Positions 1 through 2,540 of a stretch of DNA of 41,433 nucleotides are shown piece by piece (position 1 is the first letter of the stretch; the number at the start of each line of letters is the position of its first letter). The notes beneath the pieces are model-generated. The model searched no databases and had not been told where the DNA came from. It saw only the letters and a list, made by a program, of their open reading frames with translations. This stretch comes from Campylobacteraceae bacterium (GTDB taxonomy: Bacteria > Campylobacterota > Campylobacteria > Campylobacterales > Sulfurovaceae), in the NCBI GenBank assembly GCA_027034975.1, contig JALVWQ010000030.1:1-41433 (forward strand), in the 5' to 3' direction. The position numbers and the translations under genes are program-made.

Positions 1-737
1 ATTTGGCAACTTGTACACTGTTTATATTTTTTTGCTTCATATTGTGCATAAAAGAAAAAGCCTATAAGAAGTAAAATAGACGATATTGTAGCTATTTTAT
101 CATAAGTATACCAGCCGTGAAGTGTCTCTTTTGAGATATGAAATAGGGGGAGAAACAAAGAGATAAACATAAAAAAGAGTAATTTATCTGTTACGCTAAT
201 AAAATAATCTTTTTTACTATCTGTTGGACATAAATAGCTATCTATATCGGGCATATGCCCTTTCCCGGCTAATGCTTTCATTGCTTGATTTCTTTGTTGA
301 GGTTTTAATCTATCTAATAAAGAAGTATTAAATACAAAATCAACCATTCTTTGAAATGTTGCAGCTTTTTCTTTATCTTCAATTTTAAGAGTTTGCATCT
401 CTCCGTTTTCATCATCATAAATTATACTTAAATTTTCAAATCTATTGACTGTAATTGGCACATTAAAAAAATAGCTACACATTTCGGTTGATGCAAAGGG
501 TTTTTCTTGTCGAATAATTCTTGCATTAGCATATACTTTATATGTATCATCTTCTTTTATAATAAAAAGTGCATAAGGGTAGCCAATCTGTATTGCACTT
601 AAAGCATCTAAATTATGTTCAGTTGCAGTATCTATTAAGTCTTGAACCATATCCTTATAACTCTCTTTAAAACTCCTAACGGGTCCGGAGTTTACATTGA
701 TACTTTCATCAGGGTATCTTTTGAGGGGTTGGATCAT
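1..737 (-). CDS. Membrane-anchored peptide-deformylase-like protein, probably inactive (partial)
   Basis: The gene starts at ATG 737, with AGAAGG about 9 bases upstream, and runs off the window after 245 codons. The first ~140 residues resemble peptide deformylase. The GxAAxQ motif is seen as LDALSAIQIG (43-52, Gln50), and the EGCxS motif as TEMCS (84-88, Cys87). The HExDH metal motif is replaced by FQRMVDF (128-134), so both histidines and the glutamate are gone and deformylase activity is not expected. Two hydrophobic segments follow (about 184-200 and 214-231), then a CTSC pair at 241-244. It lies on the same strand downstream of sqr and a small membrane peptide, suggesting one unit. Assignment to the deformylase fold rests on motif positions and is moderately sure; the function is unknown. 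Confidence 0.65.
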   Translation of the reverse strand, partial: MIQPLKRYPDESINVNSGPVRSFKESYKDMVQDLIDTATEHNLDALSAIQIGYPYALFIIKEDDTYKVYANARIIRQEKPFASTEMCSYFFNVPITVNRFENLSIIYDDENGEMQTLKIEDKEKAATFQRMVDFVFNTSLLDRLKPQQRNQAMKALAGKGHMPDIDSYLCPTDSKKDYFISVTDKLLFFMFISLFLPLFHISKETLHGWYTYDKIATISSILLLIGFFFYAQYEAKKYKQCTSCQ

Positions 738-837
738 TGTACTAACCTTCTTTATATAATTTTATAAAAAATTTAAATTGAGTGAATTTTTTAGAAAAGT
801 TTATAGAGAGTATGGAGCATAAAGCCCCAATTTAAGA

Positions 838-999
838 TTAGTGGCTTTTTGCTACAACAATAATCATTTTTATATTAATAACAATAAATCTAATAAATTG
901 CCAGAGAACACATGTTCTTAAAAATCTTGCAAATTTACCTGGAATCATCGTCAAATTAAATTTATCATTTTTACCAAAGTTTACTTCTTCTACTTTCAT
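838..999 (-). CDS. Small single-helix membrane peptide downstream of sqr (53 aa)
   Basis: This is a 53-codon ORF with a strong ribosome binding site (AAAGGAAGAG directly before ATG 999), identical to the one in front of sqr. The N-terminal ~25 residues are polar and basic (MKVEEVNFGKNDKF...). Residues 30-50 form one hydrophobic segment (CVLWQFIRFIVINIKMIIVVA), and the tail is KSH. It begins 31 bases after the sqr stop and ends 100 bases before the deformylase-like gene, all on one strand. I do not recognise a named family. The strong start signal and position argue for a real gene. A role as a membrane partner of the monotopic sulfide:quinone oxidoreductase is inference only. Confidence 0.6.
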   Translation of the reverse strand: MKVEEVNFGKNDKFNLTMIPGKFARFLRTCVLWQFIRFIVINIKMIIVVAKSH

Positions 1000-1030
1000 A
1001 CTCTTCCTTTCTTAATTATATAGTGTTTTA

Positions 1031-2500
1031 TTATTCAGGGATCAAAGTCCAACCTGGCTTAAGTTTTGCTTTATAGATGAACAGGTAGTGAAGGATATGT
1101 TTAATCCAGTGACCTGCAAGACCAATTTCACCAAATGTATAGTCTGTGTCTCTTCCTGTTCCTGGATACTTTTCGAAATCAGGAACCACAGGATATACTG
1201 TCATTGCTGCTGCTTGGCCATCAAATATTCCTTTACCAGCACTTGCTACACAAGCTGCACCCATCTCTGCCATAGAGATTTCATGAATATGTGCATTCTC
1301 TCCATCTTTAATAAGGCTACATACAGACTCTGCAACTGCTTTTCCAATAATTCCAGAAGGCATACCCGTTCTTGGAGGAGTTGGATTAATTGGAGTACCA
1401 TTTGGTGACTTTGCAGGCTTAGAGATAATATGCGGTGGTGCAAAAGCAATACCTGCTGCAAAGATATTAGAGTAATCAGGGTTTTGATACTTTCTTGGCC
1501 AGTCACTTGCTTTCCACTCTTCGTAAGGTTTTGGAGTGTAGTCTGCATCTACTTTCATAAATCCGTTTGGTGCAAATAGTTTATCTGTAATGTCACTGCC
1601 ATCTTTTGCGTAAGCTTTTAAGCCAACACCTGCAAATGGTGGAATAAGCATTGCGAAGTCAAACTCTTCTGTACCTGTTGTTCCATCTAAGAGTTCATAA
1701 TCTAATTTACCCTCTTCAACTTTACTTACATGAGCACCGATTATCCAATCTACCCCTCTCTCTGCATAAAGAGATTCTGCAAATAGTTTAGAACTTACAA
1801 CATATCCGCCGACTTTCATATGTAAGCCACCCATTCCGAAGTCTCCCAAAAATGCTTCGTTAGAGATCCATTTAATCTCTAAGTTATCTCTAACACCTGC
1901 TTTTTTAGCTTCGTGCTCGATATTAAAGATATACTCAAATGCTGCACCTTGGCAAGTACACAATCCATGACCAGTACCTACAAGGATTTTTTGTTTCTCA
2001 GTTTTAGCTTTTTCAAAAATTCTTCTTAATTCACTGTTTGCATGCACAGCGTGGTCAGCTGTACAAACAGAAACAGTGTGTGGTCCAATTTGTCCATTTC
2101 CATCTCCAAGACCTGGAGTTGCATCGAAGTTTAGTTTTGGACCAGTAGCATTTACTAAATAGTCATACTCTAACTCTTCTGTTTGCCCCTCTTTACCTTG
2201 ACCAGTATATTCAATAGTGATAAACGGTTTATCGCTTCCCTCTTTTCCTTCTGGGTGAATAGATACAGCTTTTGCTTGTCTGTAATCTATCCCTGCTTTT
2301 GCATATACTGGCGCTAATGGAAATACAACATCCTCTTTTTTCATCTGTCCAATACCAACCCAAATATTCGATGGAATCCAGTTCCAATTTGAGTTAGGTG
2401 TTACTACAACAACTTCATGGTCATTACCAAGCCATTTTTTTGCAAATGTAGCAGTTGTGTGTCCCGCAACACCACCACCCATTACTACTAATCTTGCCAT
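1031..2500 (-). CDS. sqr: Sulfide:quinone oxidoreductase
   Basis: This is an FAD enzyme that oxidises sulfide to polysulfide or sulfur and passes electrons to membrane quinone on the periplasmic face. The 489 residues begin with the dinucleotide-binding loop GGGVAG (8-13). NATG follows at 117-120, and a conserved loop TPPRTG at 374-379 sits next to the flavin in this family. Cysteines are at 146, 181, 183, 394 and 417; Cys146, one of Cys181/183 and one of the late pair are the likely redox set. The C-terminal stretch 463-480 (GHWIKHILHYLFIYKAKL) is amphipathic and suits membrane anchoring. The length is longer than classic ~430-residue forms, so it is one of the divergent SQR types; I cannot fix which. 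AAAGGAAGAG precedes the start. Confidence 0.85.
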   Translation of the reverse strand: MARLVVMGGGVAGHTTATFAKKWLGNDHEVVVVTPNSNWNWIPSNIWVGIGQMKKEDVVFPLAPVYAKAGIDYRQAKAVSIHPEGKEGSDKPFITIEYTGQGKEGQTEELEYDYLVNATGPKLNFDATPGLGDGNGQIGPHTVSVCTADHAVHANSELRRIFEKAKTEKQKILVGTGHGLCTCQGAAFEYIFNIEHEAKKAGVRDNLEIKWISNEAFLGDFGMGGLHMKVGGYVVSSKLFAESLYAERGVDWIIGAHVSKVEEGKLDYELLDGTTGTEEFDFAMLIPPFAGVGLKAYAKDGSDITDKLFAPNGFMKVDADYTPKPYEEWKASDWPRKYQNPDYSNIFAAGIAFAPPHIISKPAKSPNGTPINPTPPRTGMPSGIIGKAVAESVCSLIKDGENAHIHEISMAEMGAACVASAGKGIFDGQAAAMTVYPVVPDFEKYPGTGRDTDYTFGEIGLAGHWIKHILHYLFIYKAKLKPGWTLIPE

Positions 2501-2540
2501 ACTCTTCCTTTATAAATTAATCTTTATACGCTTAAATTGT

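Follow-up and report, generated by a model that had tools for sequence, protein, structure and literature searches.

The window analysed here, 41,433 nucleotides long, is one whole contig (contig C30) from a Campylobacterota genome that measures 1.77 Mb and is 97% complete. At its left end lie three genes, all on the minus strand and separated by intergenic gaps of 31 and 100 bases, the layout that the original prediction had given them: sqr, a gene for a microprotein, and a gene for a deformylase-like protein. The coordinates are as follows.

1031..2500, minus strand: sqr, 489 aa, no apparent signal peptide; redox cysteines C146, C183 and C417 plus invariant C181; single predicted C-terminal helix at the end
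838..999, minus strand: microprotein gene, 53 aa; one hydrophobic helix with an invariant polar stripe (80 orthologs)
1..737 (frame 3-737), minus strand: deformylase-like gene, N-terminal 245 of 273 aa; the frame leaves the contig
L004:3-212, at the start of contig C12 of the same genome: rest of the deformylase-like gene
2498..2511, minus strand: ribosome-binding site and start codon of sqr, AAAGGAAGAGTATG
997..1010, minus strand: ribosome-binding site and start codon of the microprotein gene, AAAGGAAGAGTATG
746..752, minus strand: putative ribosome-binding site of the deformylase-like gene, AAGAAGG, read from the sequence

The window contains the 14-mer AAAGGAAGAGTATG just two times, once at the start of sqr and once at that of the microprotein gene, and shuffled sequences never contain it, which bears out the ribosome-site sequence that the two genes had been said to share; taken by itself, the 14-mer is a common kind of ribosome-binding site followed by ATG. 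Contig C12 overlaps the end of contig C30 at 100% identity and completes the deformylase-like protein to 273 aa. Four bases beyond the stop codon of the latter, on the same strand, follow genes for a 460-aa repeat protein, a MoxR-like AAA ATPase and a VWA-like protein (L004 216-3716; names assigned by eye), a local arrangement that is not kept in most relatives. Where trio loci were examined, the gene that comes next is in most cases convergent, and the MoxR/VWA context, not being conserved, was rejected as the main link of the deformylase-like gene. An independent promoter and terminator between the genes, which would have spoken against the original prediction, were not seen: there are no terminator-like sites within positions 1-2700 of the window, and promoter-like matches there stand at chance level only. 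In our reading, the three genes form an sqr operon.

The SQR matches Pfam Pyr_redox_2 (3e-9), the FAD-binding two-Rossmann fold, and SQRs of type I (E 6e-40 for Aquifex 3hyv; structural matches to SQRs in the PDB, Z 35). C146, C183 and C417 align to the Aquifex redox positions and are invariant in 76 sequences; C181 is likewise invariant. The protein belongs with the three-cysteine enzymes, in the type I/IV clade. The type I SQRs of Aquifex aeolicus (3hyv) and Acidithiobacillus ferrooxidans (3t2z) have the same fold and the same three redox-active cysteines, but they are known as single polypeptides, whereas the SQR described here is about 60 residues longer, has one predicted C-terminal helix at its end and has the microprotein as an obligate neighbour. 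As for its type, surveys place types II, IV and VI in most of these bacteria; they report type IV from every Sulfurimonas and give it the position of sister group to type I (PMC4584964). Given this universality in Sulfurimonas and the sisterhood to type I, type IV (SqrD, as in Chlorobaculum CT0117 and Thiocapsa TrSqrD) is the most likely assignment, the likeness being one of survey distribution and phylogenetic position. In the literature searched, we found no description of a small partner of type IV SQR.

The C-terminus of the SQR appears to consist of a single helix, GHWIKHILHYLFIYKAKLKPGWTLIPE, after which the chain ends, as seen in the sequence and in models whose confidence is low in this part. 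A single C-terminal helix is present in all SQR members examined, including those of Thiodictyon and Marivivens discussed below. Most SQRs have two C-terminal amphipathic helices, and Caldivirga SqrC lacking one or both of its C-terminal helices is inactive and soluble (PMC9666304). Active expression of SQRs in foreign hosts is also stated to be difficult (PMC9666304). A second SQR-like gene is present in the same genome (G000:C66:29695-30744, L295; 395 aa); it has no microprotein match beside it and is perhaps of another SQR type.

The microprotein and its linkage to sqr

The microprotein is a real, conserved gene under coding selection, since changes between orthologs fall mainly at third codon positions (substitution rates of 0.147, 0.070 and 0.401 at positions 1, 2 and 3, over 414 ortholog pairs). 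It is found in 99 of the 120 genomes of the family, in all 11 genera. Invariant among 80 microproteins, from the window and from named public loci, are P20, R28, C30, Q34, R37, F38, N42, K44, M45 and the terminal K51-S52-H53; of these, R28, Q34 and R37 stay unchanged across a broader sample of 23 members, in which Alpha- and Gammaproteobacteria are represented. A single hydrophobic stretch, about 20 residues long (Kyte-Doolittle about 2.0), carries the polar stripe of the protein, with a hydrophobic moment of up to 0.44, a profile that would fit a helix lying in the plane of the membrane as an amphipathic element, or one bound to a partner. The 23 members have no significant match in Pfam, no PDB chain matches the microprotein up to E 10, and its best NCBIfam score is 17.6 bits against a cut-off of 70; in virus collections neither the microprotein nor the deformylase-like protein has a relative at the sensitivity used.

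In a scan of 397 genomes of the phylum (sqr at E <= 1e-40, microprotein at E < 1e-7), both genes occur in the same 111 genomes with no discordant case, a perfect co-occurrence that is in part a matter of shared ancestry within one phylum. The microprotein gene lies directly downstream of sqr in 114 of 115 instances and is thus anything but mostly away from sqr, as it would have been had the original prediction failed. In the family set, sqr lies directly upstream on the same strand for 100 of 105 microproteins. Among the five exceptions, two have an SQR gene cut by the contig end (G071, G056), one a short SQR 3' remnant upstream of the microprotein (G085), and two no SQR sequence in the upstream stretch available (G092, G095), which in G092 is 1.1 kb and transposase-like by eye. 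The named public loci, which span Sulfurimonas, Sulfurovum, Nitratifractor, Nitratiruptor, Sulfuricurvum, Arcobacteraceae and others, have sqr directly upstream of the microprotein in 79 of 80 cases, and in the remaining one the contig begins inside the locus. A 574-aa fusion of sqr and microprotein in one genome (G017) turned out to be an artefact of an N run in the contig.

The same arrangement is met among more distant copies. Namely, second sqr paralogues are each directly followed by a distinct microprotein subtype of their own, and in a divergent family, whose SQR is just 54% identical, a homologue of 59-61 aa still comes after sqr. Beyond the phylum, where the search covered plasmids, an SQR of the same clade followed by a 52-aa homologue, labelled hypothetical protein, is found on plasmids of Candidatus Thiodictyon syntrophicum (Gammaproteobacteria; SQR identity 61%) and of Marivivens sp. 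JLT3646 (Alphaproteobacteria; 59.5%). Cys30 is without a counterpart in both of these microproteins. In Campylobacterota, then, the microprotein is the obligate genetic partner of this SQR class, and it accompanies SQR in two other classes as well.

Two further arrangements were seen. At one locus (L272 5300-7130) a divergent MerR gene adjoins the microprotein and deformylase-like genes in the absence of sqr, the sole such pairing encountered. In one divergent family (L281, L282, L283), sqr and the microprotein gene are followed by a thioredoxin-like gene and, two genes on, by a thioredoxin reductase-like gene; the deformylase-like gene is absent there.

The deformylase-like protein

The third protein has a recognizable deformylase domain (Pfam Pep_deformylase, 5.6e-20; Helicobacter pylori deformylase 2ew5, E 1.2e-24), and its modelled fold is in common with that of 2ew5 (158 residues aligned, Z 24.3, rmsd 1.6). 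The loss of HExDH that had been read from the window holds, the window having FQRMVDF in its place, and across the 59 members of the family the residues of an active deformylase, the Cys of EGCLS and the two His and the Glu of HExDH, are gone. In particular, the metal Cys is replaced by Thr, Ser or Asp in 56 of 59 members and kept in 3, while the first metal His, the catalytic Glu and the second His are kept in none, the first being Arg in 57, the next Lys in 53 and the last Tyr, Met or Phe in 58. Compared with peptide deformylase, the changes are thus mostly Cys to Thr, His to Arg, Glu to Lys and His to Tyr, with the addition of a three-helix membrane domain containing CxxCQ. The true deformylase of the same genome (172 aa) retains every metal ligand and the catalytic Glu, and true deformylases, at 160-200 aa, score far lower against the deformylase-like profile. 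The catalytic residues are lost, and the domain can be taken as catalytically dead; because the replacement residues are themselves conserved, it is a repurposed domain rather than a decayed one.

The dead domain is followed by predicted membrane helices, as had been proposed, but there are three of them in the full protein and not two, the gene having been cut by the contig end in the window. Between helices 2 and 3 lies CxxCQ, present in 58 of 59 members, and the topology is such that this loop would be cytoplasmic if the deformylase domain is cytoplasmic.

The distribution of the gene follows that of sqr. It is found in 79 of the 111 sqr genomes and in 0 of the 286 others (Fisher p ~1e-57), and 72 of its 87 copies directly follow the microprotein gene, so that the synteny proposed for it is also found. 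It is missing from 32 of the 111 sqr genomes and in one genus lies away from sqr, and for these reasons it is not required for SQR. The original prediction is thus supported, with its weights changed: the deformylase-like protein is an optional, sqr-dependent accessory, and the bond of the microprotein with SQR is much the tighter and wider of the two.

Several genomes have extra copies off sqr, beside genes for MerR, a carboxymuconolactone decarboxylase-like (AhpD-type) protein and a secreted DsrE-like protein, and this neighbourhood is a pointer to sulfur metabolism. Four of the loci with such orphan paralogues in MerR / AhpD-like / DsrE-like clusters (L273, L277, L278, L280) possibly belong to a sulfur-responsive regulon. 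On a Sulfurovum mangrovi plasmid (L294 5868-6683) the deformylase-like gene is broken into two frames, each annotated as peptide deformylase; annotations on the Sulfurovum mangrovi record call the deformylase-like protein 'peptide deformylase' and the microprotein 'hypothetical protein'.

Possible roles of the two partners

From genes that travel together to proteins that work together, one has to go by inference. Natural loci were translated through their stop codons, each stop being taken as Gly, and the chains so obtained were aligned and folded with AlphaFold, giving a model of SQR, microprotein and deformylase-like protein (860 aa) and one of SQR and microprotein (548 aa), in which the fused chain biases the models toward contact. 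Confidence is high for the SQR core, the deformylase part and the membrane part but not for the microprotein, whose pLDDT is about 35-59 in both, and no interface between SQR and the peptide, for which the original prediction had called for complex structures, is demonstrated by these models. In both models, the ranges aligned to type I and human SQR, which include the last residues of these enzymes, extend into the microprotein helix, an overlap that we take as a hint only; some unrelated flavoproteins also give ranges reaching this helix, and sequence profiles do not confirm it, as they do not reach into the C-terminus of known SQRs.

We infer that this SQR, which is probably of type IV, has in the microprotein an obligate small subunit located at the membrane, a reading that we favour somewhat. 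The helix of the microprotein would lie in or on the membrane, against the C-terminal anchor region of SQR, and would support membrane attachment, oligomer stability or quinone access of the enzyme. Since the SQR appears to end after one helix where most have two, the microprotein may stand in for the second, perhaps supplying in trans the amphipathic anchor helix that most SQRs have in cis; we regard this specific version, in which the anchor is split, as rather doubtful. CydX of cytochrome bd is a small single-helix subunit of a respiratory enzyme and would offer a parallel in the way it works, being likewise a short membrane peptide encoded directly after a large catalytic gene. The two have no known sequence relation, and the partner here is a monotopic flavoprotein, whereas cytochrome bd is a polytopic oxidase.

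One can argue that the microprotein is instead an assembly or insertion factor, for example in FAD loading or in delivering SQR to the membrane, and not a stoichiometric subunit. Its small size and obligate co-occurrence suit either role, and a transient contact could be made through the invariant C30 and the KSH terminus; however, the one-to-one matching of paralogues seen here, where each sqr copy has its own microprotein subtype, is less usual for such factors, and we find this explanation unlikely. A regulator or inhibitor of SQR activity, sensing sulfide or redox state through C30, would account for a cysteine invariant in 80 of 80 of the Campylobacterota set, but C30 is missing in Thiodictyon and Marivivens, and loss in some lineages would be expected of a regulator, yet none of the 111 genomes has lost the microprotein; we consider this quite improbable. 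Finally, the trio could be together by descent, a neighbourhood inherited in the lineage without functional coupling. The comparison does lie mostly inside one phylum; however, flanking genes differ between loci and the trio stays, sqr copies that are paralogous, or borne on plasmids in other phyla, still have the microprotein, and both partners are absent from genomes without sqr, all of which makes mere descent very improbable indeed.

The deformylase-like protein would be an optional accessory of SQR in which the deformylase pocket is reused for binding, and it most likely would handle sulfane sulfur leaving SQR or help assembly. Of these, sulfane-sulfur handling is a tentative proposal, and we would not go beyond calling it possible. 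The gene may also have come to the sqr operon by chance and serve a separate process, for example with the MoxR ATPase and VWA genes that, together with the repeat protein, follow it so closely in this genome; its position off sqr in one genus and as paralogues would be in keeping with this. That said, those downstream genes are not conserved, convergent genes being usual elsewhere, and the gene is confined to sqr genomes (79 of 79), its orphans standing by DsrE and AhpD-like genes, and a separate process is, in our estimate, distinctly unlikely. In its fullest form, the accessory and subunit readings combine into a picture where the whole SQR class consists of two polypeptides, with the last amphipathic anchor and quinone-site helix made as a separate microprotein, and where in Campylobacterota a repurposed membrane deformylase receives or routes sulfane sulfur; as a whole, we hold this to be unlikely.

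Among openly licensed papers we found no description of the microprotein or the deformylase-like protein beside sqr, in line with the earlier statement that no described SQR system with both proteins was known. SQR, which is regarded as an enzyme of one subunit, provides a main sulfide oxidation route in vents, caves and sulfidic sediments. Given that sqr and the peptide are in the same 111 genomes and neither is ever present in a genome that lacks the other, this 'single-protein' SQR probably has an unrecognised small partner. If so, the poor foreign expression of this SQR class could be put down, simply and testably, to the lack of that small subunit. Likewise, the dead deformylase, if our reading of it is true, would be a membrane pseudoenzyme derived from a near-universal bacterial enzyme and recruited to sulfur metabolism.
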